Below are positions 2,878-28,033 of a DNA stretch of 28,033 bases, piece after piece. The translations under genes were made by a program, and so were the position numbers. Each line of letters starts with the position of its first letter. Position 1 is the first letter of the stretch. The notes below the pieces were generated by a model, which was not told the origin of the DNA, ran no database searches, and worked only from the letters and a program-made list of their open reading frames with translations. The stretch spans positions 1-28,033 of the IMG/VR virus record IMGVR_UViG_3300030107_004538; one strand, given 5' to 3'. Source of the stretch: a virus.

Positions 2878-2886
2878 ATATAGTTG

Positions 2887-6158: not shown

Positions 6159-6170
6159 ATATTAAAAGTA

Positions 6171-6617: not shown

Positions 6618-6648
6618 ATTTATTTATTTTTTAAAATATTATTCTTTA

Positions 6649-7391: not shown

Positions 7392-7783
7392 TACTTTTTA
7401 ACTTTTTCAAGAGATCTTCCACCAAAATAAGCTCCTATTACTGTAATCAAAACAAGCTGTAATAAATCTACCCAACTTGCTTTTACTTCAAATTGAATAA
7501 TACCAGCATCTATAAAAATTAAAAGCACTGTGCTTACTACAAGAAAAATTAAAACCATAGGTCTTATATTTTTACTAAGCCATGAATCAGATTGCATATC
7601 TACCTTCCATCTTTCAGTTACTTGCTTTTGCATTTCAGCTTCGTAACCCATAATCATGTCTTTGATTTTTCTTTCTGCTTCTAACTTTTCTTCTTTAGTA
7701 GTAGTAAGATTGTCTAATACACCTCCTACATTTTTTACTAATTCACTAGCTCCAGAACTAAATATTTTACCTAATACACTCAT
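7391..7783 (-). CDS. Holin-like protein (GTA-type three-TM holin family)
   Basis: A 130-residue protein: N-terminal soluble helix region (TTTKEEKLEAERKIKDMIMG, residues 28-47), then DSWLSKNIRPMVLIFLVVST (start of membrane region near 66-90), and a second membrane segment (LLQLVLITVIGAYFGGRSLEK, near 107-127). The sequence S-x-N-I-R-P before the first TM and IGAYFGGRS in the last TM are hallmarks of the 'holin of 3TMs' family found in gene-transfer agents and many phages. Role by family: inner-membrane pore formation at lysis. It overlaps the T9SS-cargo gene by four bases (ATGA), so the two are translated together. Confidence 0.75.
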   Translation of the reverse strand: MSVLGKIFSSGASELVKNVGGVLDNLTTTKEEKLEAERKIKDMIMGYEAEMQKQVTERWKVDMQSDSWLSKNIRPMVLIFLVVSTVLLIFIDAGIIQFEVKASWVDLLQLVLITVIGAYFGGRSLEKVKK

Positions 7784-10700
7784 TGTTTTATTATTTTATG
7801 ATTTGATATTTTACCATTATAGTTTATCATTATATTATATATACCTTTGTTATATGTAGATAAATCTATTTTGTTACTTTCTTTTACTTCTAAAATTAAA
7901 TCTCCTAAAATATTATAAACTTTTGCATCTATAATATTATTTGTAATAACCAAGCCACCAGTAGGGTTTGGATATAATAATATTAAATCTCCTCTTGTTT
8001 TTAAATCTGTTCCTTGCGGCCAACCATCAACACAATGATTATATGTTAATTGACATATATTATCCCATTCATTTTCACAACAATATGGATCTACCTGTAT
8101 TACCCACGCATAACAATCATCATTTAACCAATAAGGATTACCCGCACCAGTGATACAACCAGCATCATATAAGCAAGAAGCAGAGTCATTAACATTAGCC
8201 GTAATATCATAGTTGTACGCAGTTCCGTCCATACATCCTTCAACCACAGCCACACATGAACCATTATCAGTATTAGCTGTTGAATCATAATTAAGAGCAG
8301 TGCTATCGGTACAACCATAAATAAAAGGTATACAACTAAAATCTTCAGTATTAGCGGATGGGTTATAATTGAGCATAGAAGGATCAGTACAACCGTAAAT
8401 ATAAGGAACACAAGAATTGTTATCAACATTGGCTAAAGGATTATAATTAAACATTGTGCTATCTGTACATCCATATATTGGAAGTATGCAGCTAAAATCA
8501 TCAGTATTACAACTATCACAATAATTCAAAGCGATAGGATTAGTGCATCCATATATTATAGGAATACAGCTACCATTATCTACGTTAGCTAATGGATCAT
8601 AATTAAATGCTGTACTGTCCATACATCCGTATAATATAGGTATACAACTTCCGTCATCTGTATTACATGTGTCGCAATAATTAAATGCTACTGGATTTGT
8701 ACAACCATATATATAAGGAATACACGTTCCGTTATCTGTATTAGCAAACGGATCATAATTCCACATTGTTGAATCTATACATCCGTATAAATATGGTATA
8801 CAAGACCCGTTATCTGTATTTGCTAATGGATTAAAGTTAAACATCATAGCGTCTATACATCCATATATTATAGGCACACAAGAACTATCTAAAGTGTTTG
8901 CTATTGGATTATAGTTAAATGCAATAATATCTGTACATCCTAAAATAATTGGAACGCAAGAACCGTTATTAGTATTTGCTAAACTATCATAATTAAAAGC
9001 TGATGCATCTGTACAACCAAATACAATTGGTATACAAGAGCTATCACTAGTATTAGCAGCAGGGCTATAATTAAACATAGTGTCATCCATACAGCCATAT
9101 ATAACTGGAACACAAGCAGAAGAATCATTAGTATTAGCAGATGGATTAAAATTAAATGCTGTAGAATCCATACAGCCTATTACAATTGCTACACAAGATC
9201 CATCATCTACATTAGCAAGAGAATCATAGTTAAATGCTAATGTATTAGTACAACCAAATACTTTTGCTATACATATATCTGGCATATTAGCTACTGAATT
9301 ATAATTTAAAGCAGTAGAGTCCATACAGCCAAATACTCCTTCAGTACAATAATCACCACAATATGGAACTCCATTATATCTATAAGGAAACTGAAGTATT
9401 GGGTCTGTCCATGCATTAGTCCCACCTGATATTGTAGTGTCTCCTTCTGGCCCTATTAAATAAAAACCACATTGACTTGCTGTTGTTGCTGCATTACCTG
9501 GAGCAAAAAACATTACTTCTACAGGGCTCATAGCACTTAAGCTAATAGTAAATGATTGAGAGTACCCATCATTTGGCCCCATTTGGAATGGGCCTAATGC
9601 TATAGTGTCTTGTAATATACCTAGCCAACTACCAAACCAACCATCTTCTGCCTCATCTGTTATTATTAATGTATATTGACATTGGGGAATAATTGACATT
9701 GTATTTGCTAGAGAATCGTAATCTGGCGATGTTGAATCTATACAACCAATTATCACTGGTGTAGAACAACTACTATCATCAACTGTAGCTTGAGGATTAT
9801 ATTCTGTAAATCCTGGCGTTGTACAGCCATAAATAATATTAGGCGTACAAGGCGCTACTGTATATATTGTAGACGTATCTGTACCAAAATTAGCATTTCC
9901 TGGTAATAATGAATATATTGTATCTCCACAAAGTGTTTGTACTAATACTGTTCCATCTACACCTCCATAACATGATCCACATAAACCATCTCCAAAAGAA
10001 TCAAACATAGTAAACTCTATAACAGTTCCGTTTGGAATACAAACTTCGTTTACTACTGGAATACCTACTTGAGTAAAAGAAGATGATGCTGCTAGTACAG
10101 TTCCTGTTGTGTCTGCTATCTCCCAAGATGTTTCTCCTGGATATGTATCTGGTATTACAGTTACTACTATATTAGATTCTCCAGCTGAGCAATTTGCTGG
10201 AGGCATTTGACAAGAACCATCATTAACGTTAGCCCATGGATTATAGTTTAAGGCGGTGGGATCCATACATCCTGGTATACACTCTGTAGTTGTAACAACT
10301 AAAGTATCTGTTAAACTTGAATCAGCTAACATACCTAAGAAATAATATGTAGTATTATTTTGAGAATTACTAAATATTACACCTGTATTTGACCAGTTTG
10401 TAGGATAAGGATACCAAACATTTCCTAATGTGTTTGGATCTGTTGTTCTAGTATAATACGCCATTCTACAACTAGGATTCGGCATATTTGTCCATCTATA
10501 ATGAACTTTATTTTGAGCTCCTTGACAATAATTTAAAACATAAAATGTATCTAAACCTGTGCAAGGTGGGTAAATACATGATCCATCGTCCCATCCAGCT
10601 ATTGAATCATAGTTAATTGCTAATGGATCAGTACATCCTCCATAAGGAGGTGGGCAGGGTAACAAGTTTATTGTAGTGTCTCTTAAAAAGAAGCTGATGC

Positions 10701-11070
10701 CTTGCAACTGCCAATCAATCATCATTCCTTGACAAGTATTCTCCATCTTAAACCAAGACGGTAAATTAGATGTCCATCCATCTCCATAATTATCTGTTAA
10801 TGATACAGTATAATTACCAGAGTTTAATTGTATAGTTGTGTCTAAATATTGATAAGATACTGTTGGTTGATGATAAAACACTTGTTGTCCAGAGCTGTCA
10901 TTAACCATAAAGAAATTAGATTCTTGAACACCATAAAAATCGTATTGTACTTTAAAGTTTACCCAAGTATTTTGTCCAAAAGCTACATTAAAAAATGCGC
11001 CTATTGCTATTAAAAAGACAGCAATGTATATTGCTATCCAGGGAAATAATATTCCAGGTATTTTTTTCAT
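7780..11070 (-). CDS. Secreted Cys-rich repeat protein with type IX secretion sorting domain
   Basis: I start it at ATG 11070 (1096 residues), one base after the upstream stop; an ATG at 11082 adds four residues. Residues 1-33 form a signal peptide or anchor (MKK, then a long hydrophobic stretch ending NVAFGQ). Residues about 34-570 hold beta-rich parts with DNYGDGW- and DSFGDGL-type motifs common in flavobacterial surface proteins, plus four diverged repeats. Residues 579-968 are 15 contiguous 26-residue repeats of the form GC[TM]D..A.NY.P.AN.D.GSC.P. After a Cys-rich segment (DPYCCENEWDNIC) the last 70 residues match the T9SS type A sorting domain: YPNPTGG, AKVYNILGDLI, IDLSTYNKGIYNIMI, final KIIKQ. 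By family knowledge this tail directs export across the outer membrane by host PorU/PorV/Sov machinery. It is flanked by phage genes with overlapping ends, so it is phage-borne. Confidence 0.85.
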   Translation of the reverse strand: MKKIPGILFPWIAIYIAVFLIAIGAFFNVAFGQNTWVNFKVQYDFYGVQESNFFMVNDSSGQQVFYHQPTVSYQYLDTTIQLNSGNYTVSLTDNYGDGWTSNLPSWFKMENTCQGMMIDWQLQGISFFLRDTTINLLPCPPPYGGCTDPLAINYDSIAGWDDGSCIYPPCTGLDTFYVLNYCQGAQNKVHYRWTNMPNPSCRMAYYTRTTDPNTLGNVWYPYPTNWSNTGVIFSNSQNNTTYYFLGMLADSSLTDTLVVTTTECIPGCMDPTALNYNPWANVNDGSCQMPPANCSAGESNIVVTVIPDTYPGETSWEIADTTGTVLAASSSFTQVGIPVVNEVCIPNGTVIEFTMFDSFGDGLCGSCYGGVDGTVLVQTLCGDTIYSLLPGNANFGTDTSTIYTVAPCTPNIIYGCTTPGFTEYNPQATVDDSSCSTPVIIGCIDSTSPDYDSLANTMSIIPQCQYTLIITDEAEDGWFGSWLGILQDTIALGPFQMGPNDGYSQSFTISLSAMSPVEVMFFAPGNAATTASQCGFYLIGPEGDTTISGGTNAWTDPILQFPYRYNGVPYCGDYCTEGVFGCMDSTALNYNSVANMPDICIAKVFGCTNTLAFNYDSLANVDDGSCVAIVIGCMDSTAFNFNPSANTNDSSACVPVIYGCMDDTMFNYSPAANTSDSSCIPIVFGCTDASAFNYDSLANTNNGSCVPIILGCTDIIAFNYNPIANTLDSSCVPIIYGCIDAMMFNFNPLANTDNGSCIPYLYGCIDSTMWNYDPFANTDNGTCIPYIYGCTNPVAFNYCDTCNTDDGSCIPILYGCMDSTAFNYDPLANVDNGSCIPIIYGCTNPIALNYCDSCNTDDFSCILPIYGCTDSTMFNYNPLANVDNNSCVPYIYGCTDPSMLNYNPSANTEDFSCIPFIYGCTDSTALNYDSTANTDNGSCVAVVEGCMDGTAYNYDITANVNDSASCLYDAGCITGAGNPYWLNDDCYAWVIQVDPYCCENEWDNICQLTYNHCVDGWPQGTDLKTRGDLILLYPNPTGGLVITNNIIDAKVYNILGDLILEVKESNKIDLSTYNKGIYNIMINYNGKISNHKIIKQ
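7783..7992 (-). other. T9SS type A C-terminal sorting domain (part of the repeat protein)
   Basis: The last 70 codons of the repeat protein fit the TIGR04183-type 'Por secretion system' tail: a YPNPTGG opening, a strand with VYNILGDLI, the signature IDLSTYNKGIYNIMI (consensus idLs.l..GiY.v.i), and a terminal Lys-rich strand KIIKQ. Known role: recognition by the T9SS translocon, removal by the PorU sortase and attachment to A-LPS or release. Confidence 0.85.
8167..9336 (-). repeat. 15 tandem 78-base (26-residue) Cys-rich repeats
   Basis: Each unit encodes a hydrophobic pair, Gly-Cys, Thr or Met, Asp or Asn, then a [AM]xNY[DN] block, [AS]N[TV][DN][DN] and [GS]SC followed by [IV]P[IVYF]. Two Cys per unit (about 18 apart) could pair within a unit; the Asp/Asn-rich turn could bind calcium, like other DxDxDG-type repeats (inference). 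Units 13 and 15 carry the variant NYCDxCNTDD with four Cys. The total length (1170 bases) is exactly 15 x 78, so there has been no net indel drift. Confidence 0.9.
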
Positions 11071-11071
11071 A

Positions 11072-11431
11072 TTAAAAATCACTCATTATAATTTCATTAA
11101 TAACTTCTTGCACATCCTCTTCTCTAGCCATCATCTTAAAACTTAAATCAGCCTGAAACCTTTTAATTTCTTCACCATCATTAAGAATTATTATAGTAGG
11201 AACAACAACCACATTATGTTTCATTTGAGAATCTGAATCTTTTCCTATATCTATAAAACTCTTTTCACAGTCACTAAGATTTTTTATCCATTCAACTTCA
11301 TTAGACTTATTCCATTCAGCATTAAATTGAATAACTTTTACTTGACCAAATATTGTGCTACTGATAAATACAAAAACCATAATAAACACATACGCAACGT
11401 AAACTTTCCAAGTATAATTTGTTTTATTCAT
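11072..11431 (-). CDS. Membrane-anchored or secreted thioredoxin-fold protein without CxxC
   Basis: A 119-residue protein with an N-terminal hydrophobic segment (residues about 10-29, VYVAYVFIMVFVFISSTIFG) ending in a GQ-type cleavage-like site, then a thioredoxin-like domain: VKVIQFNAEW (first strand, where WCxxC normally follows), SFIDIGKDSDSQMKHNV (the D-V-D strand/helix), VVVPTIIILNDGEEIKRF (the cis-Pro strand and hairpin), and a final helix EEDVQEVINEIIM. The active-site position reads AEWNKSNEV, so both Cys are missing and ordinary redox activity is excluded; a chaperone, scaffold or binding role is more likely. Its stop lies one base before the T9SS protein's preferred start, so the pair is tightly coupled. 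The fold call rests on motif order and the cis-Pro segment. Confidence 0.65.
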   Translation of the reverse strand: MNKTNYTWKVYVAYVFIMVFVFISSTIFGQVKVIQFNAEWNKSNEVEWIKNLSDCEKSFIDIGKDSDSQMKHNVVVVPTIIILNDGEEIKRFQADLSFKMMAREEDVQEVINEIIMSDF

Positions 11432-12790: not shown

Positions 12791-13831
12791 TTAGAATACG
12801 ACATAATTAAGTCCAAACTTAAAGTCGTACCACTCCCTGTTCCAATACTTATTGTACTTTCCTTCTACAAAACTTCCTAATTGTTTATTAAATTTATATC
12901 CAAAAATTAAACCGCCTGAATAATCATACCATTGTTTACCATCGTTATAATTGTGATATGAAAATTCTCCTCCATCATTATAATGCCAAGGCATAAAATT
13001 TAACCACGTATGCAACCAAAAATCTTTTTTATAATGATAAAAGTCTAATCCTAAAACTAAAGACTGTTGCATTTTTCTATCTAATTGATTTCTTTTTTTA
13101 TTTACATAATCTGCTATTACTTGAGGTATAACTATTTCTTCCCATACCTCTACAGATGTAGCAACAACATTACCAGCAGGATCTTTATATTCAGAATTAT
13201 ATACATCTATATTGTATCCTTCTTGTATTGCTAAATATGTATAATGAATGTTACCATTTGATAATAACCACTCATCTAAGGGGTTATATCCATAAGGCTC
13301 CGAAAGTCGCTGAGAAGCTCCTATATTAAGCGACAGCTTATTATTTAACTTATATCTATATCTTTCAGAAACTTCAAAATATTCTATATCTGCAAATCCA
13401 TCTTGCAAATATTCTCCTTTTAAAATATACCAATCTCCTACATATCTTATAAAATGATTTTGATCTAAATAGTTTACCCCTTCTTGTCTTTTATAATCTA
13501 ACTCAAATAAAAATTCTAAACCAGATACCTTCCCTATAGTAGCTGCGTCAGACCAAGATTTTTCAGTTCCATCATAAAATGTATTAGCTCTATTTTCATA
13601 ACCAAATCTTGCTATCTTTCTAATACCAAAAGCAAGATTATAATCATAAGGAGTTTCAAGTGTAGATGTTTTTAATCCATTTGAAATAGAATACTGATCT
13701 ACATCTGATAATGATGTACCGCCACTTACAGCTCCGTAAAAAGTAGAAAACTTAAAAGCTTTTTTGAAAGTTTGCGAATTTGCAGTAAAAAAGAAACACC
13801 ACAAAATTATTAAATATAATAACTTTTTCAT
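12791..13831 (-). CDS. Predicted outer-membrane beta-barrel protein
   Basis: I start it at ATG 13831, one base after the previous stop (346 residues); the longer frame to 13867 would bury the signal peptide. Residues 1-20 are a clear signal peptide (MKKLLYLIILWCFFFTANSQ) with a cleavage site near Ser19. The rest is aromatic-rich with alternating strands and turns (RYRYKLNNKLSLNIGASQRL, DFWLHTWLNFMPWHY, YDYSGGLIFGYKFNKQLGSF), and it ends FKFGLNYVVF with a terminal Phe, the usual outer-membrane assembly signal read by BamA. I find no plug, enzyme or TonB-box motif. Phage-encoded outer-membrane proteins are known to alter receptor use (for example Lom-type proteins); the role here is inference. 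Confidence 0.7.
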   Translation of the reverse strand: MKKLLYLIILWCFFFTANSQTFKKAFKFSTFYGAVSGGTSLSDVDQYSISNGLKTSTLETPYDYNLAFGIRKIARFGYENRANTFYDGTEKSWSDAATIGKVSGLEFLFELDYKRQEGVNYLDQNHFIRYVGDWYILKGEYLQDGFADIEYFEVSERYRYKLNNKLSLNIGASQRLSEPYGYNPLDEWLLSNGNIHYTYLAIQEGYNIDVYNSEYKDPAGNVVATSVEVWEEIVIPQVIADYVNKKRNQLDRKMQQSLVLGLDFYHYKKDFWLHTWLNFMPWHYNDGGEFSYHNYNDGKQWYDYSGGLIFGYKFNKQLGSFVEGKYNKYWNREWYDFKFGLNYVVF

Positions 13832-13832
13832 T

Positions 13833-14075
13833 TTATTCGTCTTCAATATACCACTCACCACTTTCATTGTCTAAAATAGCAAGGATTTCACTGTGCGTAT
13901 ATTCTGTTTTACCAGTTAAAAAACTTGGAGTACTACCTTCAAATTTTACAAATGTTTTTGTGTTGTCATTGTTATATCTAAGCATAGGAGCTGAATGTTC
14001 TAAAACCTTGTCAAAATCTATTCCGTTAACTTCACCTGCATCTATTATTACGTATTTTCTATTTTCGTATGTCAT
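13833..14075 (-). CDS. Small conserved-looking phage protein, unknown
   Basis: An 80-residue acidic soluble protein beginning MTYENRKYVIIDAGEVNGID with a short-strand character, followed by SAPMLRYNNDNTKTFVKF, then a TPSFLTGKTEYTHSEILAIL motif and an acidic tail (YIEDE). Small proteins with a similar start and EYTHSEILAIL-like tail occur among marine phage structural genes as far as I recall; function unknown. One base separates its stop from the beta-barrel gene's start, so the two are co-translated. Confidence 0.6.
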   Translation of the reverse strand: MTYENRKYVIIDAGEVNGIDFDKVLEHSAPMLRYNNDNTKTFVKFEGSTPSFLTGKTEYTHSEILAILDNESGEWYIEDE

Positions 14076-15244: not shown

Positions 15245-18200
15245 TTATCTGTATCTTACAGACGATTCTTCATCTCTTTTTGTAAAAGGTCGTAAAGCAG
15301 GTAATGTTCTGTATAAATCAGATTTCCATTTCTTTTCACCTTTTTCTAGATATAAGCCTGATCTTTCAGCAGTTGCACCTGTTGCAAAATGCCTTGTTCC
15401 ATGATAAACATTCTTCATTGTCCAATAAGAAGCTGGAGTTAATGTCCATTTCATTCTATCAGGATCAGTAAATATAAATATATCATCTAATAGCTTATCT
15501 AACACTCCTTTATCTTTATCATCTCCACCTCCAACTGCAGCAGCCATTAAAGCTACAGCCATCGCTATCTTAACACCTCTTCCCCATTTTTTAATAGCAT
15601 CTTTTTTATGTTGTGGTAATTTTTTAAATTCCTTTAATGTCATTTTACCCATAATTAAATCTCTACCTACTTGAGCTGCAGCAGTATATGATCCTATTTC
15701 TGCTTCACCAAATCTATTAATTGTTTCTGGGCCAAACCTTTCATTTACTAATGTTGGAAACCATCTTGTAAATTGTAGCATAGCTCTTCCCCAAGAATAC
15801 ATTCCCATAAGTCTTTGGTCTACAGGCGAATAACCTCTACCTTGCTCTCTTTTAATTTTATCATATCTTTTAACTGTTTCTTGTGGACTAAGAGCACTAT
15901 TCTCCATACCTTCTTTAATAATTAATTCCCCATCTTCATTTACGTCATAAGCATTTAGTTCTTGTTCTGTCATAGTCCCTAAAAATGCAGCACCTTGAAT
16001 CCAAAACTCTGAAGCATTCATTGGCCAAAAAACTATTTCATCTATCTTATTTTTTTCTTTTACAGAATAAATATCATCAAATACATTATATTCATGACGC
16101 ATTATTTTATTTATTATAGCATGATTTCTTTTCCAGTTTTTATGATCCCAAAATCTTTTTTCACCTAAAGCAAATTCTTTTCCACCTTTAGATCTCATCT
16201 GATTATATTTCCCTATTAAAATATTTCCTATTGCTGGTATAATACCAAAACCTAATACACCATATAAAGTATATTTAATAAAAGCATCTATCATTGTATC
16301 ACCAACTTTTCCAAATTGTTCTTGTTTTCTATTTAAAAGGTATCCATCTTTCCATACTTCTTGAAAATATTTTGCCATTTTCATATTTCCACCTTGCTTA
16401 TACATTTTAATAAGACCATCAATTAATGGAGACACTCTTTCCATTCCTTCAAATCCTGTAGCTCCTTCAATATGAGAATCGCCTCTAGCAAATACAGAAG
16501 CTCTTGCAAATAGTCTACCTATATCACCAAGATTTTTTGTGCCTATATCAGCCATTTTTACTTGTTTAGAGCTAGCAAAATCCTTAAATAAGTTTGATCC
16601 TAACATAGCTCTTGCTTCTGCCTTAGACATCCCTATAGGCTTTCCATTTGCATCTTTTCCAGACTTAAGATATTTATATGCTTTAGTTCTTAATTTTTCT
16701 AACTCCATAACTTTTCTTCCACCTACTGTTTCAATAGCTCCATTCCTATACATTTCTCTCCACTCTTGAAATGGCATAATTACTTTCTTCCCAGACGGCC
16801 CAAGACCATCTACCATAATATGATTAATGTCTGCTGTAGATCCTAATTTAGAATTATATAAACCAAACAAACCTCTATTAGCAAAAGATTCAAATGAATT
16901 CATCATCATATGAGGAATGTACCCCTCTTGATTATATTCATATTTTCTCATTAGTTCAACAAATGATTCGTAAAATTCTATTTCTTCAGGAGATAATGCT
17001 TTTATTTCTTTTTCGCTTTTTAACCTAATATAATTATCAGGCATAATATCTATCATATTTCTATACTTATATTCACCCCATTTACCTGTGAGAAGCAATT
17101 GCATATATTTAGGCCAGCCAACTTCTTTTCTTAATTTTCTATTTATTGCTCTCTCCGCTTTTGATATTCTAGCAACTTGTGCTTTATATGCTTTAACATA
17201 TTTAGCGTGTTCAGTTTCTATTTTTTTAATAACAGCTTGTGCTGCTGGATGATCCCCAGGTATATTATTAGACATTAACCACATTTGTACCCAGCTAATA
17301 TCTTCTGTTCCTTCTTTTACACCTGTAACCTTTGTTTGTTGTTCTGAATATCGTATAGCAAGTTCAGTTCCTATAATACCATTTATTAATTCGCTTACCT
17401 CTTGCTCATACTGATTCAAGTTCCCATACTCTATAGACAAATTAATAAGCTCATCTATAGAATAATCTTTAATACCGTCATTTTCTAAAGCAATAAGAAA
17501 TGGAAGAACTTCATTTTCCATCTGTTCTACATAATTATTATATTCTACTATTATAAGCCTTTGTGCTTCTGAATCTAAATTAGAAAGGGTTATTCCTTTT
17601 TTTTTTAACCACTCTTCTCTGCTTAGAATATCTACAGTCCCATGATCTGGTATGTTAGATCTTTTTAATCTTGTAGAACCAGTTAATCCTTTAAATTTAC
17701 CTCCACGTCTTCTTGCTAATTTTTTAATTTTAGCTTGAGCCGCTTTCTTTTCAAACTCAGTTTTTTCTGCTCTTGTAATTTTTCTAGGAGTTCCTCCAAA
17801 CTCTGGCAATACACCATCAGCGTCAACTAATTTATATTTTCCATTTCTTCCTGTATATTCTAATACAATATATTTTCCTTGACCTTTGTCCCAGGACTTA
17901 ATATAATGAACTCTACCTGACTCTTGTAAATTTCTTACAGTAACACTGTCTGGTCTTATAGAATTCTCGTAAGGAAAATATTCATATCTATTTCCTTTTT
18001 TAATAACATCTTTTGTGTTTGCAACAGGAATAAGTCTATATTGCTCTAACAACAATTCTCTTGCAACCTTATCCATTTCTTGTGAACTTAAAGGATCAGT
18101 ATTCATTTTATTACGCATAGCTTCTAATTCTGGATTTAATCCTTGCCATACATTATCACTCCATAATACAGCTGTAGTAGCACCTATCCATCTATTATGA

Positions 18201-21200
18201 ATAAAGTCGAGCTGTATAATTGCTTTTTGTAATTCAGGAGATAATTTTGCAAACTCTGATTTATACAAATCAATTTCAGCTTCTGTTGTATATTCATTTA
18301 TAAACTGTTTATTTATTCTAAACTTTTTATTACGCTTTTCTTTAGTTACTCTATCGTATTGTCCAAGCATAGTAATGCTTTCAGTTAAAAATAAATTAGG
18401 ATCTTCTTTTAATGATTCTTGTAATATATTTTCTTCTATTTGTAATATTAAATCTTGTTCGTTTTGTAAATCTTTTAGAACACTTAATTCTTGTTGCATT
18501 CTAATAAGAGCATACTTACGAGAAACTCTTCCATGAGCAGCCATTGGATTTTGATGTGATGAAAAATCTTTTAATACATTATTCATCATCGTACCTTCAT
18601 TAGAATCTACTATATTAGATATTTCATAATTCTTAATAATATTATTTAAAGTAAATAGATTATTCTTAATCATTTTATCTTCTTTAAATTTATCAGCAGA
18701 TTCTTTTTTAATTCTAGATCTATATACTGGTTTACCTTCTTCTTCAACAACAGTTCCTAGTCTTTCAAATCTTTCTATTATTTGATGTCCTTGATGTGAG
18801 CTATTAGGCCATGTTTTATAAACATTTAATATACTTCCAAAATCATATACATCTCTACTTACTTCATCTAATGTAGATAATAATGTTAAAACTTCAAGAT
18901 CATTTATATTATTTGTATCTATTTTAATAGTTAATCCACTTTCAGTTTTAAGTTTCTTTTGAATACCTCTCATTGTAGCTACACGTTTCTTTTGGTTCAT
19001 GTTTTCAAGCTCAACATCTGCATTTACAGATTCTTTTCCTACCTTCATATCTAACTCTAATAAAGCTTTTTCAGCAGGGGTATAAGTTGTAAACGTTTCT
19101 TTGTGTGTAACTAATTTGTCGCCAGCATATTTATTATATAATTTAGCCGCATTACTATTCATTATAGTTGCAATTTGCTCAAATGAATATCCCATTCGTT
19201 TTAATATAATAAATTGATTAACTGTGTTTCTAGTTATACCTAATTTATTAGCAAATAAATGTGTTGGATTATCTAATATAATATTCATTATTTGGGCTAC
19301 TCCAAAATGATTATTAGGATTTTCATTATTTAATGAATTTGATACTTTACCATCTATATCTATTTCAAAATCAAACTCTGTATTATAAAATGATAAATAG
19401 TTTAAGTTTCTATTCATTACAGCAGCAATACCAATAAGATTTCTAGCTGGTACATTATCATTAAATATTTCCATATCACCAACAGGAGATAAGTTTTCAG
19501 CTTTTACAGCTACATCTTCTTTATTAAGCTTAATATTTGATCCGCTTATAGCTCCACGAACTTCGCTTTCAAATTCTATAGGTTTTAAAATATCATTTCT
19601 CATTTTTGGATGAGATAAATATTGTACCATTCCTCTAAATGCTTTATTATATGTTTGCTTCCATTTTTCTTGACCAGTTCTATATTCTGTACTTACAAAA
19701 ATTGCATCTCCATCTAAATCTGCCCCAATCTTATTTGTAAGTTCTGCTGGCATTGTAATTGCTGATCCTGATTCTGTAGAGTGAAAAGATTTAATTACCA
19801 ACACATTTGTGTCAGATAGTTTAGATGCTGGTATTCTTGTTCCTAAAACAACATCACCAACTTTATATCCTAACTTCTTTAGAGAAGCAGGAGCAATAAT
19901 TTCTGATCCAAATATAGCCCCCATATTAGTCTGTAAACTTTGATGTGCTTTTAATGCGTGTCCTGCATCTGATGTTTGATACCCTATAGTTCCAGCTCCT
20001 TTAAGCTTTCCTTGCCCATTTAATATTAATTTAGATCCTGTTTGAGCAATAACGCTAGCCCCTACTGAATTTTTAATAATATTTAATTTAGGAAATAAAG
20101 CAGAAGCTACATTAGTTAATTTATCTACAGGATTACCAACCCAATTACCTAATCTTTTTAATATAGATTTATCTGACTTATCTAACGCTTTATCATTATT
20201 TCTATACTTTTCTTTTATTAATATATCTCCTGTTTCTGTATTAGATTTTTGCTGCATTGCATTAGTAAGATTATTAATAACGCCTTCAGCTATAGATTGT
20301 GTTTCTATATCATTATTAGCGTTAATCATAATATTACCAAACATCTGTACAGGTAAAGGAGCTTCTGTTCTTTCTTTATCTAATATAAGTTGAACTCCGA
20401 AATTCTCTCCTGATAATACTTGAAATTCACCATCTTCATTTGTAAATAAATCTTTTTGTATAGAGTCTATATTATTATGATTTACAGTATCTTCTCCTAT
20501 AGTATGCATTGCTTTATCTGTATCAAATCCAATTTTAACAGCTGAACCTGCTACAGCAACAACAAAATTACCTTCTTGCCTTTTCTTTCTTTCTTCTAGA
20601 ACTTGTTTAATGTTTTGTAGATGTTTACTATCTCCAACAATAGAATCTGTTAATACAAATGTATTACCTTTAAGATACATAGCGTCTACATTAATAGATT
20701 GATCTTTAGGTAAGATATGATTTGGACTACTTCCATAATAAACAAATTTGAAAAAATTACCAAAGTCATTTAATAACCCATAACCAGCTTTAGCTTGTTG
20801 TGCATCTTCAGGAAGTATATACATAGCTCCATCTGTTGCGTTAGTTACAAATTCTGGATTAGGATTACCGTTTAATAAATATTCTTCTGGAAGTTCACTA
20901 AGAGGAATAAAGCTATTTGAACCATTAACTTTATATAAGTCTTCAAACATTACAGTTTCTATTTTTGCATCTCTATCAAAAGGTATGTGTCTAGCTATAG
21001 CTCCAGATGCACGTTTAGAATAATCAATAGCAGTTTTACTATTTTCATGCTTTCCAATCATAAGTCGCTGTGCTTGTATACGATTCATAGCATAGTTAAG
21101 AACATACATTCTTAATTCATTATCTGCATTTGATTTGAATTGACCATTATTTGTTAAAATAGAAGAATAATTCTTTTTGCCTTTATAAATATGTATGTTT

Positions 21201-24200
21201 TCTTGTATATGGTTTTTAATTTCATTTATCTTATCTCTAACCCATATATTATCAATAGAGCCATCTTTTTTTAATACAGGAAATACAGCGCTTCCATCTT
21301 TATATGTTTTGTCTGCTAAATATTTTAACTTATCTAATTCTGTTTTTATTTCTTTCATTGTCTGAAAGGCAGGAGAATTAACATAATATCTTCTAGTCTT
21401 TTCACCAAATACTCCAATAGCTTGTTTGTAGAAAGGAATGCCACTTTTAGTATCTTTTATTCCTTTAAAGAACGCTCCCATATCAGCAGCCATAAGCTCT
21501 GTTCCATTCATTCTTACATAATTACTACCACTATTATTAATAGATGAATGCAACCCTCCTAAATAAGACATTCTTAATCTCTGTCCTTCAGCAAGCATTT
21601 CTAAAAATACATTACCTTCATTTTCTGCTAATAACTTATCTACTCTATCGAAATAAGCATCTGTTGGATTACCGTTTTCATCTTTTTCATATTCTTGTAT
21701 TTCAAATACATCTTCTATATTACGCTTTCTATTATGTATATATGATTCTTTATTTACTAAATTTGTAGGATTACCTTCTACATTATTAACCATAGTAATA
21801 TAATTCTTCATTCTTGAGGATATGATTAATTGCTTAACCAATTTCCTTGTCATATTTTCGTTTAGGGTATTTGTTCTTACAAATCCTTTACTCAACAACT
21901 TAGGAACTACTTCAGATAAAGTATAATTAACTCCATTATAGTTTACACCTTTAGCTCTAATTCTAACCCAATCAATCTTATTTTCTGAATGAGGATTAAT
22001 AAATACATAATTTTTAAGAAGTTGTTCAGCTTGTTTGTCAGTTAGATTGTTTAAGTCTAGCTTCATTAATTCTCTGATATCTTCTATCCTATCATTTTTA
22101 ATTTGTCTTGGAGATTCTGGATTTACATAAAAATAATTAAACTGATCCATTATGTAATCTTCTAAATTCTTTTCTTCAAAAGCCATAGCTTCTTCAGTAA
22201 AAAACTCATGCATACCTTCATTATCTTCTTCTTGGTTATAACTAAATATATCTTCATGTACTCTACCAGAAAACTCTTTATGTAACATCATTAAGAAAGC
22301 ATCTGCTTTTGTCGGATCATTTTCTAATAAGTTTTCTAGCCATTGAACAAATCTAATAGTTTGCTCATCATTACTAGATCTGATTGTATCAATAAATGCA
22401 GAAGGATCATTTTTAGAATCAAAACCTGCCATCATTAAAGTTCCTTGCAAATGTTTACCACCTCTTTGACTTTTCTTAATTCCTGGCTTTTTAGTTTTTG
22501 TATCTATACCATATTCTTCATTTAAGAATACTCTAATTAATCTTTGAACTGTTGGGCTTACTACATCATCAATGCTTTTCTTTTTTTCGTAATTAAACTT
22601 ATCTTGATTACCATGCCCTTCTTCAAAAAAGAAATCAGGATCTGTTCCGAATTGTTTAGTAATCATTTCATCTATAGTTTCTACAGCTTTAGCAATCCAA
22701 TCTTCATCTGTTAAAAATTGTTCTGCTATTGCAGGATCTAAATCTGCTCTAGTAACGCCTTCTTCTGCAGGACTTCTTTTAATTAAATCTTCTCGTATAT
22801 CTTTAATAGTTATCTCATTCCAAAACTTTCTAAACTCAGGAGACTGTGGAATTAAATAAGTAGCTACCTTCTCTTCTGCAAATGAAATTATTTTTTCTGT
22901 ATTTAAAAACTTGCTATTTACTCCCCACCCTTTATTAATCTTTTTAATTGCAGAATCTATAATTAACGGAATATATCTCTCTCTATCTTTAATAAATTGC
23001 TCAGCTGTTAAATATTTAGTTTTTCCCGCTTCAGTTATTTTAATTTTTTTACCTTCAAATCCTTTAATATTTTTACCACCTTTATCTTTAAGACCAACTA
23101 ATCCTAATATATCTCTATTTAATTGGCTTAATATATCTCCCATTTGTTTTTGATACGCAGGATCAATTCCTTTTAAAACATCCTTAGCTAATCTTTTAGA
23201 TGATTGACTTGTAGAATATGTATTTAAAGTATGTCTTCTTTGTCTTTTATTAACAATAGTACGCATACTCTCCTGAAGAGTAGGAATATCATCTATATCT
23301 TTTAATTCTGGATTTTGCTGACGAAGTACTTGTTTAGATATTTCTTCTTTATTCCCAAACTGTCTTTTAATTCTGTTCCAAAATCTTTTAGCATATCCTT
23401 TATGTTCTTCTAATTTTTTAGGAAACGTAGCACCAAGCATTTGCTCTAATACTACCTGACTATTTTCTTCTGTAGAAAGAGCCCACATTTCTTCTTTAAG
23501 AGCTTCTTGTTTATTTTTGGAAACTTCTTTCAACCAACCATTAGCATCTAATAAAGATTTTAACCTATCATAATCAGTGTTTAATTCTGATCTAGAATAT
23601 TTTCCAGTATTAAGCTTTCTGTTCATATCTTCTATTAGCTCTCTTACTTGTCTATATTCAGCTTCTTCGCTTTTAGCCCATTTAGTTCTTTTATCTGAAA
23701 CCAATCTATCCATATGGTCAGCTAAATCTTCTATAGTAAGTGTATGTGATTCTCCTGTCCTAGGATCTGTATAAGTATACATCATTAAGTTAGGATAAGT
23801 TTTAACAGTTTCATCCCATAACGGAGTTTCCATTAAATTGTTTACACCTTTCTTAACTGGCTGTGTATGTTTATATGCTCTATAAAATATATGCCCACCA
23901 TATTCATGAGCTAATGTTTCTTGCCATTCTCTGTCTGCTTTAATAAATATTGCCCCAACAATAGCTTCTCCTAAAACATCAGAAGGAACAACTTTTGTTA
24001 ATCTATTCATAACTACTAAAGCTGTTTTATCTACTTGTGAATTTCTATACATTTTTAAAAGCCTTCTAAGCGTTGTTTCGTCTCTGAGAGCTTGTATTAC
24101 ACTTGTTCCAGGATCTTCGCTTACAGTTACTCTTTGACTATTATTCCCAAACCTTCCTTTCTTTTTTGGTTTCTTTTTCTTTTTAGTAACAGGTTCTGTG

Positions 24201-27200
24201 TCTTTATTGTTTTCTTTTATATTATCAAAAAATTTATCTATTTTTTCTGTTTCTTCTTTTCCTTCTCTCTTCAATTTATCATACTTAGCAAATAACGGAG
24301 CTGACTCTATCGCTTTTCTTTCTTCTTCTGTTAATTCTGTTTCAGGAAATAACTCTTCTATTGCAGATATAAGCTCTTCTGCAGATAATTTTTTTTCATA
24401 ATTTTTACCGAAAACCTCTTCAAGCTTTTTTTGTAATTCCAAATTTTCAGGAAATAACTGTTCTATTGCAGACATTTCCTCTTCTGTTAATTCTGTTTCA
24501 GGAAATAGTTTTCTCTCCTTAGCTTTTTGTTCTTTTAATTCTTGTTCTACTGCATCATACTCTTCTTGAGTATACACGTCACTTCCTTTTCTTCTTCGTA
24601 TTTCTTCTATAACCTCACTCGGTTTAATAATAATATTTCTAGGGTCAGTCATATCAATACCCTCATCTATTTTTTTATCAGCTTTTTCTTTCGTTTCTTC
24701 AGTAGCAAGTATATTATTTATATCTTGTTTAATAGTTTCAATATCTACCTCACCATTTTTTGTAGGAATTCCTTCAGGAAATAATGAATTAATATCTTCG
24801 TCTGTAAGCGTTTCGCCAGATACTTCTTTTATAGTTTCTCTGATTTGATCAACAGCTTCTTGGTTAGCAACAGAACCGTCTTCATTAAATATCTGCTCTT
24901 TCTTACCTTCTTTATTTACTTTGATTTTATTAAACCCTTCTTGAAATGATTTGGCAAGCTGACCAGTTGTATCTGCAATTTTAGAAGCAATATTTCTTGC
25001 TGCTTTTAATGCTTTAGACGAAAGGATTCCAGCAGCTATTGCTACATCACCTGTAGTTTTTACACCACCAACTACACCTTTAACAGCATCAACTCCTTTC
25101 TTAAGTAGGTCTTTACCTTTCTGAATTAAACCTTTACCTTTTTTTTTAGCTTTATCTTTAAAGAATGAAGTAACCCTTTGTTTAATAGATTTTCCTTCTG
25201 GAGAGTTTTTTAAACGATTCATCTCAGCTAATATATTTGATCTTGTTTCAGTTATATTATTAGCCTTAAGATTTTCTATAGCTTTTTCTCTATATTCATT
25301 ATTTAATGTTTCTTCTTGCCCTTGCATTGTCCATTTCTTTTCTAATTCAGGGCTTAATTGTGGAGCCTCTTTAGAAACAAACGTACCAGGTTTTACTTCT
25401 TTAGTAACTACTTTATCTTCCTCTGTAGTAACAGGCGCTTCTTTAACACCTTTTCTATATCTTCTTCTTCCTTGTGGAGCTGACTCTGTAATAACACTAT
25501 TTATAATAGCTGCTTTTAATACTTCTTTTTCATTTATTAAATTTTCTACCGCTTCTATTTCAGCCTGTTTTTTTAATTCTAGCTTTTGAATTGCTGCTTC
25601 CTTTTGCTCTTGATTCATTCCTTTTTGCTTCTTAACTGCATTAACGTTTTCTTCATAAGCCTCATTTATAGCTTCAATATCATAAGCTGCATCTAAAATT
25701 GCATGCTCTGCAAGGAAGTAAGCTTCTTTTTGGATATCAGTCATCTCTTCTGAGAATTCCATATTATTCCAAGCTTCAGTTGTTTTTATTAAATTCTCTT
25801 GATATATATCGTGTGATTGTTGATCTATTTTTTCTTCTTGTAACAGCTGTGTAAGATACTGACTCATCTCTTCAGTCCTTCCATTAACAGCAGCATCAGT
25901 TGTTACTAATCTAATAACTTCTTGCTTTTTTTGCATATCAGTCATATCAGAATTTATAATAGAGTTTAAAGCCTCTTCTCTTTCTTCTATTATACTTTGT
26001 CTTTCTGCCATTGTATTGATAAATGCTTTACCGCCAGGAACAATACCTGTAGCAAATGCAACACCTCTTACTTTCATTCCTTCAGGAGAAGTAAAGTAAT
26101 CCCAATATCCCATATAGTCTCTACCTTCTCTTTTTCTTATATTTTTTTCTACTATCCATTCTTGATATGTTTCTTGAAACTGCTCTTCCATACCTTCAGC
26201 ACCACCTACACCTGCAGCTATAGCAAAAGGTCTTAGCTTTTGAGCAAATGTTCTTTTAGCGCCTTGCATAGCAGCCTTTCCTAATGTTCTTGAAAGAACC
26301 ATTTGTCCAATTCCTGCATAAGCAAAGCCCCAAGATAGCATATCTATTGCCATATATAATGAATTTTCTGCCCATATATTTGCAGCTACTAGTCTTGAAG
26401 CACCATTACTTAAACCACGTTCTCTTGCCTCTCTATATCCTGCACCAGCAACCATAGCACCATCAACAACGTTCATAAATGAACCACCACCTAATCCCAA
26501 TCCTGCTAATTTTCCTGATCTTGTTAATACGTTACCAAGTAATGCAGCTTCACCAGTCTTTTCTACAGCAGCTAATCTTCCAAGTAATCCTGCACCTTGC
26601 TTTATCTGTACGCCTCCAGCAGTAACTCCTGGAACAACCTTGCCAGACTTAATCATTTTTTTCATAGATTTATTTAAAGCTGTTGTTGCAACCTTACCTA
26701 CTGCATAACCTCCTGTCATCATTGCAAGCAAATTAGGAAGGACTCTTGCAACTTCTTGTCCCCAAAAATCAGGATTTCCTAAATCTCCCCAATTAAATTC
26801 TTGTATTTCTTTAGGAGCATAATTTACAGCATAGTCTTGAAATGGTTTACCAAGAGCTCTAATTGAATCTCCAATAGGATCTGCATAATTTAATGTCCAT
26901 CCAGTAAGTGGATTAACAGCATTAGCAAATGTTAATACATCACCTACTTGCATTATTACATCACCAACACCAGCAACAAATTGTCTCCCTGTCCTTTGTT
27001 CAATAGGCATTAAAACATCACCTACATCTTCAGGTATTATTTGTCCAGGAGCAGGCCCTGCAGCCATCTGTGCAGCTAATGGACTTTCAGCAGCAGATAC
27101 TTGTTGAGCAGCTAAAGCATCTAACTGTGAATCTGTTGTTCCTGTTTCTTGTGCTTCTTGTTGTTGTAATAAGGCTTCTTCTTCTCCTAATTGATTAAAA

Positions 27201-27304
27201 GATCCAAACCCAATAGGTTTTTGAAATTGCTGATCATAAGACTCAATATCTTTACCTGGTACAGATACGTTTCCTTTAGAAAGGTTTTTAACAAAATTTG
27301 GCAT
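15245..27304 (-). CDS. Giant multi-domain virion-associated protein with RNA polymerase-like and zincin domains
   Basis: 4019 residues, roughly 450 kDa. Order: (1) residues 1-90 Gln/Ala-rich, polar; (2) about 90-430 Gly/Ala-rich with several hydrophobic helices (LPNLLAMMTGGYAVGKV, LYMAIDMLSWGFAYAGIG), like membrane-penetrating ejection proteins; (3) about 430-1080 charged, coiled-coil and low-complexity, with repeated LFPETELTEEE; (4) zincin motif HEYGGH at 1133-1138; (5) about 1300-2350 mixed helical region with no family recognised; (6) about 2380-2760 RNA-polymerase-like module with DLDGD at 2529-2533; (7) about 2760-3650 helical, charged; (8) membrane segment near 3673-3700 (LYGVLGFGIIPAIGNILIG) and an Ala-rich one near 3905-3925; (9) basic C-terminus. 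Layout and size recall N4 gp50 and crAss-like giant proteins, packaged in the virion and injected. No frameshift or stop interrupts it. Confidence 0.85.
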   Translation of the reverse strand: MPNFVKNLSKGNVSVPGKDIESYDQQFQKPIGFGSFNQLGEEEALLQQQEAQETGTTDSQLDALAAQQVSAAESPLAAQMAAGPAPGQIIPEDVGDVLMPIEQRTGRQFVAGVGDVIMQVGDVLTFANAVNPLTGWTLNYADPIGDSIRALGKPFQDYAVNYAPKEIQEFNWGDLGNPDFWGQEVARVLPNLLAMMTGGYAVGKVATTALNKSMKKMIKSGKVVPGVTAGGVQIKQGAGLLGRLAAVEKTGEAALLGNVLTRSGKLAGLGLGGGSFMNVVDGAMVAGAGYREARERGLSNGASRLVAANIWAENSLYMAIDMLSWGFAYAGIGQMVLSRTLGKAAMQGAKRTFAQKLRPFAIAAGVGGAEGMEEQFQETYQEWIVEKNIRKREGRDYMGYWDYFTSPEGMKVRGVAFATGIVPGGKAFINTMAERQSIIEEREEALNSIINSDMTDMQKKQEVIRLVTTDAAVNGRTEEMSQYLTQLLQEEKIDQQSHDIYQENLIKTTEAWNNMEFSEEMTDIQKEAYFLAEHAILDAAYDIEAINEAYEENVNAVKKQKGMNQEQKEAAIQKLELKKQAEIEAVENLINEKEVLKAAIINSVITESAPQGRRRYRKGVKEAPVTTEEDKVVTKEVKPGTFVSKEAPQLSPELEKKWTMQGQEETLNNEYREKAIENLKANNITETRSNILAEMNRLKNSPEGKSIKQRVTSFFKDKAKKKGKGLIQKGKDLLKKGVDAVKGVVGGVKTTGDVAIAAGILSSKALKAARNIASKIADTTGQLAKSFQEGFNKIKVNKEGKKEQIFNEDGSVANQEAVDQIRETIKEVSGETLTDEDINSLFPEGIPTKNGEVDIETIKQDINNILATEETKEKADKKIDEGIDMTDPRNIIIKPSEVIEEIRRRKGSDVYTQEEYDAVEQELKEQKAKERKLFPETELTEEEMSAIEQLFPENLELQKKLEEVFGKNYEKKLSAEELISAIEELFPETELTEEERKAIESAPLFAKYDKLKREGKEETEKIDKFFDNIKENNKDTEPVTKKKKKPKKKGRFGNNSQRVTVSEDPGTSVIQALRDETTLRRLLKMYRNSQVDKTALVVMNRLTKVVPSDVLGEAIVGAIFIKADREWQETLAHEYGGHIFYRAYKHTQPVKKGVNNLMETPLWDETVKTYPNLMMYTYTDPRTGESHTLTIEDLADHMDRLVSDKRTKWAKSEEAEYRQVRELIEDMNRKLNTGKYSRSELNTDYDRLKSLLDANGWLKEVSKNKQEALKEEMWALSTEENSQVVLEQMLGATFPKKLEEHKGYAKRFWNRIKRQFGNKEEISKQVLRQQNPELKDIDDIPTLQESMRTIVNKRQRRHTLNTYSTSQSSKRLAKDVLKGIDPAYQKQMGDILSQLNRDILGLVGLKDKGGKNIKGFEGKKIKITEAGKTKYLTAEQFIKDRERYIPLIIDSAIKKINKGWGVNSKFLNTEKIISFAEEKVATYLIPQSPEFRKFWNEITIKDIREDLIKRSPAEEGVTRADLDPAIAEQFLTDEDWIAKAVETIDEMITKQFGTDPDFFFEEGHGNQDKFNYEKKKSIDDVVSPTVQRLIRVFLNEEYGIDTKTKKPGIKKSQRGGKHLQGTLMMAGFDSKNDPSAFIDTIRSSNDEQTIRFVQWLENLLENDPTKADAFLMMLHKEFSGRVHEDIFSYNQEEDNEGMHEFFTEEAMAFEEKNLEDYIMDQFNYFYVNPESPRQIKNDRIEDIRELMKLDLNNLTDKQAEQLLKNYVFINPHSENKIDWVRIRAKGVNYNGVNYTLSEVVPKLLSKGFVRTNTLNENMTRKLVKQLIISSRMKNYITMVNNVEGNPTNLVNKESYIHNRKRNIEDVFEIQEYEKDENGNPTDAYFDRVDKLLAENEGNVFLEMLAEGQRLRMSYLGGLHSSINNSGSNYVRMNGTELMAADMGAFFKGIKDTKSGIPFYKQAIGVFGEKTRRYYVNSPAFQTMKEIKTELDKLKYLADKTYKDGSAVFPVLKKDGSIDNIWVRDKINEIKNHIQENIHIYKGKKNYSSILTNNGQFKSNADNELRMYVLNYAMNRIQAQRLMIGKHENSKTAIDYSKRASGAIARHIPFDRDAKIETVMFEDLYKVNGSNSFIPLSELPEEYLLNGNPNPEFVTNATDGAMYILPEDAQQAKAGYGLLNDFGNFFKFVYYGSSPNHILPKDQSINVDAMYLKGNTFVLTDSIVGDSKHLQNIKQVLEERKKRQEGNFVVAVAGSAVKIGFDTDKAMHTIGEDTVNHNNIDSIQKDLFTNEDGEFQVLSGENFGVQLILDKERTEAPLPVQMFGNIMINANNDIETQSIAEGVINNLTNAMQQKSNTETGDILIKEKYRNNDKALDKSDKSILKRLGNWVGNPVDKLTNVASALFPKLNIIKNSVGASVIAQTGSKLILNGQGKLKGAGTIGYQTSDAGHALKAHQSLQTNMGAIFGSEIIAPASLKKLGYKVGDVVLGTRIPASKLSDTNVLVIKSFHSTESGSAITMPAELTNKIGADLDGDAIFVSTEYRTGQEKWKQTYNKAFRGMVQYLSHPKMRNDILKPIEFESEVRGAISGSNIKLNKEDVAVKAENLSPVGDMEIFNDNVPARNLIGIAAVMNRNLNYLSFYNTEFDFEIDIDGKVSNSLNNENPNNHFGVAQIMNIILDNPTHLFANKLGITRNTVNQFIILKRMGYSFEQIATIMNSNAAKLYNKYAGDKLVTHKETFTTYTPAEKALLELDMKVGKESVNADVELENMNQKKRVATMRGIQKKLKTESGLTIKIDTNNINDLEVLTLLSTLDEVSRDVYDFGSILNVYKTWPNSSHQGHQIIERFERLGTVVEEEGKPVYRSRIKKESADKFKEDKMIKNNLFTLNNIIKNYEISNIVDSNEGTMMNNVLKDFSSHQNPMAAHGRVSRKYALIRMQQELSVLKDLQNEQDLILQIEENILQESLKEDPNLFLTESITMLGQYDRVTKEKRNKKFRINKQFINEYTTEAEIDLYKSEFAKLSPELQKAIIQLDFIHNRWIGATTAVLWSDNVWQGLNPELEAMRNKMNTDPLSSQEMDKVARELLLEQYRLIPVANTKDVIKKGNRYEYFPYENSIRPDSVTVRNLQESGRVHYIKSWDKGQGKYIVLEYTGRNGKYKLVDADGVLPEFGGTPRKITRAEKTEFEKKAAQAKIKKLARRRGGKFKGLTGSTRLKRSNIPDHGTVDILSREEWLKKKGITLSNLDSEAQRLIIVEYNNYVEQMENEVLPFLIALENDGIKDYSIDELINLSIEYGNLNQYEQEVSELINGIIGTELAIRYSEQQTKVTGVKEGTEDISWVQMWLMSNNIPGDHPAAQAVIKKIETEHAKYVKAYKAQVARISKAERAINRKLRKEVGWPKYMQLLLTGKWGEYKYRNMIDIMPDNYIRLKSEKEIKALSPEEIEFYESFVELMRKYEYNQEGYIPHMMMNSFESFANRGLFGLYNSKLGSTADINHIMVDGLGPSGKKVIMPFQEWREMYRNGAIETVGGRKVMELEKLRTKAYKYLKSGKDANGKPIGMSKAEARAMLGSNLFKDFASSKQVKMADIGTKNLGDIGRLFARASVFARGDSHIEGATGFEGMERVSPLIDGLIKMYKQGGNMKMAKYFQEVWKDGYLLNRKQEQFGKVGDTMIDAFIKYTLYGVLGFGIIPAIGNILIGKYNQMRSKGGKEFALGEKRFWDHKNWKRNHAIINKIMRHEYNVFDDIYSVKEKNKIDEIVFWPMNASEFWIQGAAFLGTMTEQELNAYDVNEDGELIIKEGMENSALSPQETVKRYDKIKREQGRGYSPVDQRLMGMYSWGRAMLQFTRWFPTLVNERFGPETINRFGEAEIGSYTAAAQVGRDLIMGKMTLKEFKKLPQHKKDAIKKWGRGVKIAMAVALMAAAVGGGDDKDKGVLDKLLDDIFIFTDPDRMKWTLTPASYWTMKNVYHGTRHFATGATAERSGLYLEKGEKKWKSDLYRTLPALRPFTKRDEESSVRYR
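19024..20164 (-). other. RNA polymerase-like double-psi-barrel module in the giant protein
   Basis: Residues about 2380-2760. Landmarks in order: a strand-rich segment (GASVIAQTGSKLILNGQGKL), SEIIAPASLKKLGYKVGDVV, LGTRIP with Arg2490 (compare beta-prime RAPTLHR and the RIP of crAss-like polymerases), a strand VLVIKSFHS, ITMPAEL, then GADLDGDAIFVS with Asp2529, 2531 and 2533 as magnesium ligands. About 120-220 residues later come NLIGIAAVMNRNLNYLSF and a helical block (AQIMNIILDNPTHLFANKLG, then LKRMGYSFEQIATIMN) comparable to the helical part after the catalytic barrel in crAss-like enzymes. The DxDGD signature is known from QDE-1-type and phi14:2 gp66-type polymerases. I could not identify the lysines of the first barrel with confidence. 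Confidence 0.75.
23480..23990 (-). other. Zincin metallopeptidase-like domain in the giant protein
   Basis: Residues about 1105-1275. HEYGGH (His1133, Glu1134, His1138) follows a strand VGAIFIKADREWQETLA, which is the usual edge strand then active-site helix of zincins. A candidate third zinc ligand, Glu1271 or Glu1272 in LKEEMWAL, lies about 135 residues on, in a helix like the E..A helix of phage polyvalent-protein zincins. Possible roles: self-processing of the giant chain, or cleaving host protein after injection. Confidence 0.65.
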
Positions 27305-27305
27305 A

Positions 27306-28033
27306 TTATTCTTTTGTGTTTAATATATCTGCCCATAAGTCAGCAGATCTTTTTACTTTTTTTGCAAAATTAAAATTATTTGTTTCCATTAGCTTATAAT
27401 AATTAGACACATTTCCTCCTTTAAGTACTTCAAACCATTCGGCATTATTAGGATGTGCAACAAATTTACTAAAGTTTGCTATATTATTAAGTAATTCATT
27501 TGCTGGATCTTTTGATTTTGGATCAATACTTTCCATCATTTCTGCCATTAATAAAGGATACATATGTTTAGGAATACCATTAAGTTCCATTCTCTGTTGT
27601 AACGGATTTCCAAATGTGTCCATTAATGTCATTACAGATTCGGGAGATCCATCGCCATAAGCTTTAGCTATTTTCTTTTGACTCTGAACTATTCTTTTAT
27701 TTTCTGAAGACTGTTCATTTATTTTATGATAAGTATCTATATTTTGATTTCTTTCAGTAGCTAAATCTTCATTAATATCCATTGATTTATTTATTGCAGC
27801 CCTAAACATATCTGATTCAACGTTAATTTCTTTATAATATAAATCATCTCTTATTAAGTCAGAATCTCTAAGCTCTGCAATTACCACAGGAGCAACCTCT
27901 ACATTACCATAAAGCTCTTTCATTTCTTCTCTTTTATCTTTATCTTTTATATCAGTAATTAAGAATGATTCATATCTATTTGTTTTAGGATTAAATCCAT
28001 ATCCTTTATACCCAACAAACATACCTTGATAGT
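27306..28033 (-). CDS. Unknown helical protein upstream of the giant (5' end cut off by window)
   Basis: The frame is open to the right edge (reading ..YQGMFVGYKG at the border), so ATG 28022 need not be the true start. The visible 238+ residues begin with a short strand region (GYGFNPKTNRYESFLI), continue as a charged helical middle (KRIVQSQKKIAKAYGDGSPE), and end in a helical part (NGIPKHMYPLLMAEMMESID, then FAKKVKRSADLWADILNTKE). No family recognised. It ends one base before the giant gene's start, so it is co-translated with it; by position it may be another internal virion or ejection protein, or an assembly partner of the giant. Confidence 0.6.
   Translation of the reverse strand, partial: YQGMFVGYKGYGFNPKTNRYESFLITDIKDKDKREEMKELYGNVEVAPVVIAELRDSDLIRDDLYYKEINVESDMFRAAINKSMDINEDLATERNQNIDTYHKINEQSSENKRIVQSQKKIAKAYGDGSPESVMTLMDTFGNPLQQRMELNGIPKHMYPLLMAEMMESIDPKSKDPANELLNNIANFSKFVAHPNNAEWFEVLKGGNVSNYYKLMETNNFNFAKKVKRSADLWADILNTKE

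Follow-up and report, generated by a model that had tools for sequence, protein, structure and literature searches.

A predicted two-barrel RNA polymerase of the crAss-like virion type within a giant single-chain phage protein

The window analysed here, a 28,033-nucleotide stretch of viral DNA (IMG/VR record IMGVR_UViG_3300030107_004538), encodes a protein of 4019 residues (ORF and translation; Table 1). In all likelihood this giant cargo protein includes a DNA-dependent RNA polymerase of two-barrel, single-chain build, one of the crAss-like virion type. We regard this protein, with good support, as a variant of an established family, the crAss-like virion RNA polymerases, represented by the enzyme of phage phi14:2 (gp66 of Drobysheva et al. 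2021, which is gp077 in KC821624 and the protein of PDB entry 6VR4). The apparent novelty lies in a deep DxDGD-bearing clade that has parts resembling gp078, gp077 and gp076 of phi14:2 in a single chain.

Table 1. Positions of the giant protein, its parts and the gene upstream of it
Feature	Residues	Window coordinates	Strand	Evidence
C-terminal part, phi14:2 gp076 homologue	3650-4019	15248..16357	-	clade HMM E 1.1e-15; hhalign probability 98.4
Giant protein: fused virion RNA polymerase / ejection-type cargo (predicted)		15245..27304	-	ORF; full-length IMG/VR relatives of 3510-4709 aa
Two-barrel RNA polymerase core (predicted)	1850-2900	18605..21757	-	AlphaFold2; VIA-align to 6VR4
Long helix and next helices, putative bridge helix/trigger-loop region	2600-2720	19145..19507	-	names assigned from position
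Barrel A (DPBB-A), including R2490, P2492 and catalytic loop	2433-2539	19688..20008	-	model strands 586-690
DLDGD, predicted Mg-binding aspartates	2529-2533	19706..19720	-	D2529/D2531/D2533 invariant; align with phi14:2 D1361/D1363/D1365
Barrel B (DPBB-B), with D2158, K2212, K2257, Q2305, Q2320	2150-2325	20330..20857	-	invariant residues; exact limits predicted
Zincin-like metallopeptidase region	1000-1300	23405..24307	-	aligns with the sister HExxH, with a one-residue insertion
HEYGGH (HExxxH)	1133-1138	23891..23908	-	aligned to sister HExxH
N-terminal part, phi14:2 gp078 homologue	1-500	25805..27304	-	clade HMM E 3.1e-6; hhalign probability 93.8
Upstream gene, 238 aa in window		27306..28022	-	G002 and G003 matches, E 3e-9 to 4e-9; also L115, L114

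The sequence that drew attention to this protein, GADLDGDAIFVS, occupies residues 2527-2538 and contains the only DxDGD of the chain. Translation confirmed its setting as described in the initial annotation: MPAEL immediately precedes the motif, and the final residue of LGTRIP is 2492, 37 residues before DxDGD. Composition leads one to expect 0.046 DxDGD and 0.0004 G[AS]DxDGD by chance in such a protein, so that DxDGD by itself is weak evidence. Judged from an alignment of 52 sequences, the context of the motif is beyond chance, R2490, P2492, G2527 and the three aspartates being invariant between the window protein and its relatives.

Pfam and NCBIfam gave no match to the whole giant protein and PHROGs gave two weak matches to unnamed families, none of them an RNA polymerase family; phmmer against the PDB returned chance matches only, a tblastn search of phages with residues 2200-2900 as query was empty at E 0.01, and peptide-pattern scans built from the single sequence retrieved no relatives. 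When tblastn was repeated with residues 2001-4019 and the limit raised to E 1, the phages among the matches listed were crAss-like or gut phages of a similar kind; these matches lay on residues 2466-2562 and fell nearly all on genes annotated as RNA polymerase. Local blastp aligned the motif block together with a second, collinear block downstream of it. A DNA pattern for GADxDGDxIF identified three IMG/VR contigs of one phage (the sister phage), whose giant protein of 3644 aa is 25-34% identical to the window protein across most of its length. Profile scans then yielded 80 crAss-like loci, as well as 28 loci of a DxDGD clade; the clade ORFs closed at both ends measure 3510-4709 aa from stop to stop, and all carry [AS]D(L/M)DGD. 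The bacterial genome contigs scanned held no relative.

An HMM built from the clade alone matched phi14:2 gp077 with E 1.2e-21 and other crAss-like RNA polymerases with values down to 6.6e-25, and no reversed decoy stood among the matches listed for the polymerase region. Against the PDB, the clade-only profile gave two weak matches (E 0.47 and 0.79), both to gp96 of Thermus phage P23-45 at its DFDGD. We consider this profile the cleaner sequence test. A profile that contained phi14:2 also matched 6VR4; as this is circular, it was excluded as evidence.

Residues 1850-2990 were modelled with AlphaFold2 from the 52-sequence alignment (pLDDT 81.9, pTM 0.84). The best Foldseek match was 6VR4 (E 2.4e-24), followed by QDE-1 and P23-45 gp96, and VIA-align superposed the model on 6VR4 with Z 22.1 and an rmsd of 4.3 over 902 residues (model range 1-1051), the remaining two-barrel RNA polymerases scoring Z 10-13. 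In a library of predicted viral structures, most of the named top matches were crAss-like giants, phi14:2 included, with cr50_1 the best. Because the alignment includes distant phi14:2-like sequences and 6VR4 may be in the AlphaFold training set, the model and its match to 6VR4 are not fully independent; AlphaFold without an alignment gave an unusable model (pLDDT 31). The model indicates that residues ~1850-2900 have the phi14:2 gp66 fold, similar overall to 6VR4. The initial annotation had placed an RNA polymerase module resembling phi14:2 gp66 within the giant protein, and here fold, residues and clade profile agree: barrels were modelled with confidence, and the closest structure was 6VR4, with the other two-barrel polymerases after it, rather than an unrelated fold. 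The stretch it had flagged (19024-20164) takes in the first barrel and the bridge/trigger region (residues 2381-2760), and leaves the second barrel, with K2212 and K2257, outside.

Ten positions are invariant in the 52 aligned sequences (R2098, K2212, K2257, Q2320, R2490, P2492, G2527, D2529, D2531 and D2533), and A2628, D2678 and G2705 are conserved in >=94%. At all 17 conserved positions checked, the Asp triad and the two invariant lysines among them, phi14:2 gp077 has the identical residue; K2212, K2257 and Q2320 align with its K1027, K1065 and Q1116. The DxDxD catalytic motif of the phi14:2 gp66 family lies in barrel A; the VIA-align matches of Pol II largest subunits begin at model residues 580-584. 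The second barrel with its conserved lysines is on the same chain, in a region that was modelled and is inside the 6VR4 alignment, and it matched Suoliviridae at an hhalign probability of 94.3. Beyond barrel A, the model has a 33-residue helix at 2607-2639. By these alignments, residues ~1850-2900 hold both predicted sets of active-site residues.

These observations bear on two further readings of the motif. That DxDGD arose by chance in a helical ejection protein would be in keeping with the compositional expectation given above and with family searches that yielded nothing from Pfam and NCBIfam and two weak unnamed matches from PHROGs; the confident model, best matches that are all two-barrel RNA polymerases and the 17/17 positions held in common with phi14:2 make this reading scarcely credible, and we rejected it. 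It is also very improbable that the polymerase fold was kept as a catalytically dead, DNA-holding part of an ejection machine. The strong divergence from 6VR4 (13-15% identity) would fit such a loss, as would the A that follows the third Asp in the window protein, where most crAss-like RNA polymerases have K, but the invariance of the three aspartates, both lysines and R2490 in 52 sequences is not expected of a dead enzyme. A T7-like right-hand polymerase, as in N4, was rejected as well, since the modelled part matches two-barrel RNA polymerases and DxDGD lies in a barrel.

The chain around this core resembles the products of three phi14:2 genes. In phi14:2 these are adjacent and encode proteins of 1797, 2180 and 1421 aa, which are replaced in the window by one chain of 4019 aa. 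In addition to the terminal parts listed in Table 1, residues 2400-2800 match gp077; residues 500-1000, 1350-1850 and 2800-3650 had no match among the named crAss-like proteins tested by hhalign. Four profiles made from the clade (N, Z, R and C) all matched one chain in every clade ORF closed at both ends. Among named crAss-like phages, those tested mostly had their N, R and C matches on separate proteins, with crAss002, where R and C are together, as the exception; distant homologues may escape profiles made from the clade. As far as homology can tell, the gp078-, gp077- and gp076-like parts are joined in one chain, and their order is kept in all complete relatives.

The zincin-like region is recognised by its alignment to sister proteins. 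Its motif carries a one-residue insertion in the window protein and its nearest relatives L113, L114 and L115 (HEYGGH, HEFTGH, HEYTGH and HELTGH), which thus lack the canonical HExxH; the other clade members checked have HExxH. In dipeptidyl peptidase III, the zinc motif has the form HExxxH. Elsewhere, the region gave one marginal profile match, on the HEIMH region of phi14:2 gp076. In a simple hydropathy test only two segments passed, residues 110-130 and 3671-3700. Of the zincin and membrane segments described in the initial annotation, the former stands as a zincin-like region with HExxxH in place of HExxH, and the hydrophobic segments are weak.

A possible, if doubtful, variant of our explanation is that the chain is a precursor which the zincin-like domain cuts into N-terminal, polymerase and C-terminal pieces, the fusion being only genetic. 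Zincin-like domains were suggested by Iyer et al. to act in the processing of phage proteins with several domains (PMC5512222), and the three parts of the chain match three separate phi14:2 proteins. Against cleavage, we saw neither a cleavage site nor a processed product, the motif in the subclade of the window is HExxxH, and the P23-45 RNA polymerase remains within full-size gp96 in virions (PMC10770324).

The combination of polymerase and peptidase on one chain, which had been thought unusual, proved to have precedents in Suoliviridae, P23-45 gp96 and N4 gp50. Many crAss-like phages have HExxH and DxDxD on one ORF, and crAss-like RNA polymerase genes can encode up to about 6000 aa (PMC10136315). 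Of the known systems, phi14:2 shares with the window protein the fold over ~900 residues and the same catalytic and conserved residues, and the neighbours of its polymerase, gp078 and gp076, have their homologues in the N- and C-terminal parts; it differs in having three genes and DFDID, where the window has a single chain and DLDGD. The giants of Suoliviridae, such as cr10_1 gp32 (4460 aa) and cr50_1 gp59 (4774 aa), carry HExxH and DxDxD on one chain, with HExxH ~1480 residues nearer the N-terminus, and their barrel regions are homologous to those of the window protein, cr50_1 being the top fold match in the viral library. They differ from the window protein in that neither an N-terminus resembling gp078 nor a C-terminus resembling gp076 was detected on the same chain, and in forming a separate TerL branch. 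The public record of cr50_1 gp59 (L031:15826-30150) labels it 'DNA helicase' despite its HExxH and DFDID.

P23-45 gp96 (PDB 8H2M, 8H2N) likewise unites a two-barrel RNA polymerase (DFDGD), a metallopeptidase and membrane domains in a giant chain (PMC10770324), and when the clade-only profile was compared with PDB sequences, gp96 alone was matched. It differs in that the polymerase is at the N-terminus of the tape measure protein of a long-tailed phage, and the structural match is weaker. A tape-measure polymerase of this type was rejected for the window, where the polymerase is at residues 1850-2900 of 4019 in a crAss-like context. In N4-like phages (Schitoviridae), gp50 is also a single ejected chain of ~3500 aa with an RNA polymerase fused to a zincin-like HExxH domain and a likely membrane-spanning N-terminus (PMC12633501, PMC5512222), but that polymerase is a T7-type single-subunit enzyme, unrelated to the two-barrel RNA polymerases. 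One-chain cargo of polymerase and peptidase has arisen with at least two unrelated polymerase folds (N4 and two-barrel), a pattern suggestive of a common requirement among polymerases that are ejected. QDE-1 and plant RDR2 are two-barrel single-chain enzymes as well (Foldseek E down to 2.8e-7 for QDE-1; Z ~11-13), but they are eukaryotic RNA-interference enzymes.

Neither a capsid nor a terminase gene lies in the window, so that its lineage is judged from relatives. The sister contig (G002) encodes a capsid protein (Crass_capsid, 2.6e-41), and the relatives of its TerL and portal proteins are mostly from crAss-like phages. In a TerL tree of ten sequences, G002 fell outside Suoliviridae, Steigviridae and Flavobacterium phage Fpv3, with the Pachyviridae sequence farthest off; the tree has long branches, and its root serves for drawing only. 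The window and its relatives appear to represent a deep, apparently undescribed environmental crAss-like lineage. Flanking genes are common to the window, the sister contig and the nearer relatives. The sister phage has a 661-aa protein ahead of its giant protein, and the product of the gene upstream of the giant gene in the window is related to it.

We propose that the giant protein probably travels in the particle and enters the cell together with the DNA, by analogy with phi14:2, whose gp076-gp079 are annotated as virion proteins from MS/MS (record annotation). The phi14:2 enzyme, whose function is taken from its citation in PMC7886860, serves together with the crassvirus cargo model (PMC10172136) as the analogy for packaging, extrusion and refolding of the chain and for early transcription. 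The giant chain would be made late and packed in the capsid, as are gp076-gp079. On infection, it would thread through the tail partly unfolded, ahead of or with the DNA, and its N- and C-terminal parts may assist in crossing the envelope. The middle part would refold in the cytoplasm, where the two barrels would form one active site in which the three aspartates hold Mg2+ and the two lysines contact nascent RNA or NTP. The refolded enzyme could then transcribe early genes before host polymerase is needed. An extension of this proposal, which we consider unlikely, is that envelope crossing, peptidase and polymerase have been united as a single obligate chain in this deep crAss-like lineage, every ejected molecule forming part of a DNA channel and also serving as the polymerase at its cytoplasmic mouth, pulling the genome in by transcription.

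P23-45 also possesses a two-barrel RNA polymerase that is not in the virion, gp64 (PMC10770324), and the window enzyme could similarly be made after infection for middle or late genes. The gene neighbourhood speaks against this: the giant gene lies in a minus-strand run that includes lysis-type and structural-type genes, and in the sister contig it follows the TerL, portal, capsid and tail-lysozyme genes on a single strand. Moreover, the phi14:2 homologues of the N-terminal, middle and C-terminal parts are all found in virions. We therefore hold a non-packaged enzyme to be quite improbable.

The packaged, one-chain polymerase that we favour extends the crAss-like virion RNA polymerases to a lineage whose giant protein is missed altogether by Pfam and NCBIfam, and provides a clear case in which three injected proteins have become one. 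The joint action of polymerase and ejection proteins in genome entry thereby becomes a testable question.

Several other genes of the window deserve mention. The 1100-aa product of 7780-11082 (minus strand) contains numerous Cys-rich repeats and, at its C-terminus, a sorting domain of the T9SS (TIGR04183, 3.5e-8; Pfam, 4.3e-7), and this phage protein seems to be built for secretion by a Bacteroidota host. A 358-aa minus-strand product (12791-13867) has a signal-peptide-like stretch near its start and is 62% identical in L112, L114 and L115; it had no match in the family search and is possibly an outer-membrane barrel. On the plus strand, 1277-2134 encodes a radical SAM protein of the spore photoproduct lyase family (TIGR03886, 1.3e-93, below the curated cut-off of the model). 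Three tandem paralogues of 148-155 aa (MATLTVTLxE...) are present on the minus strand at 5700-7116, each with a match to one gene close to the capsid genes of the sister contig.
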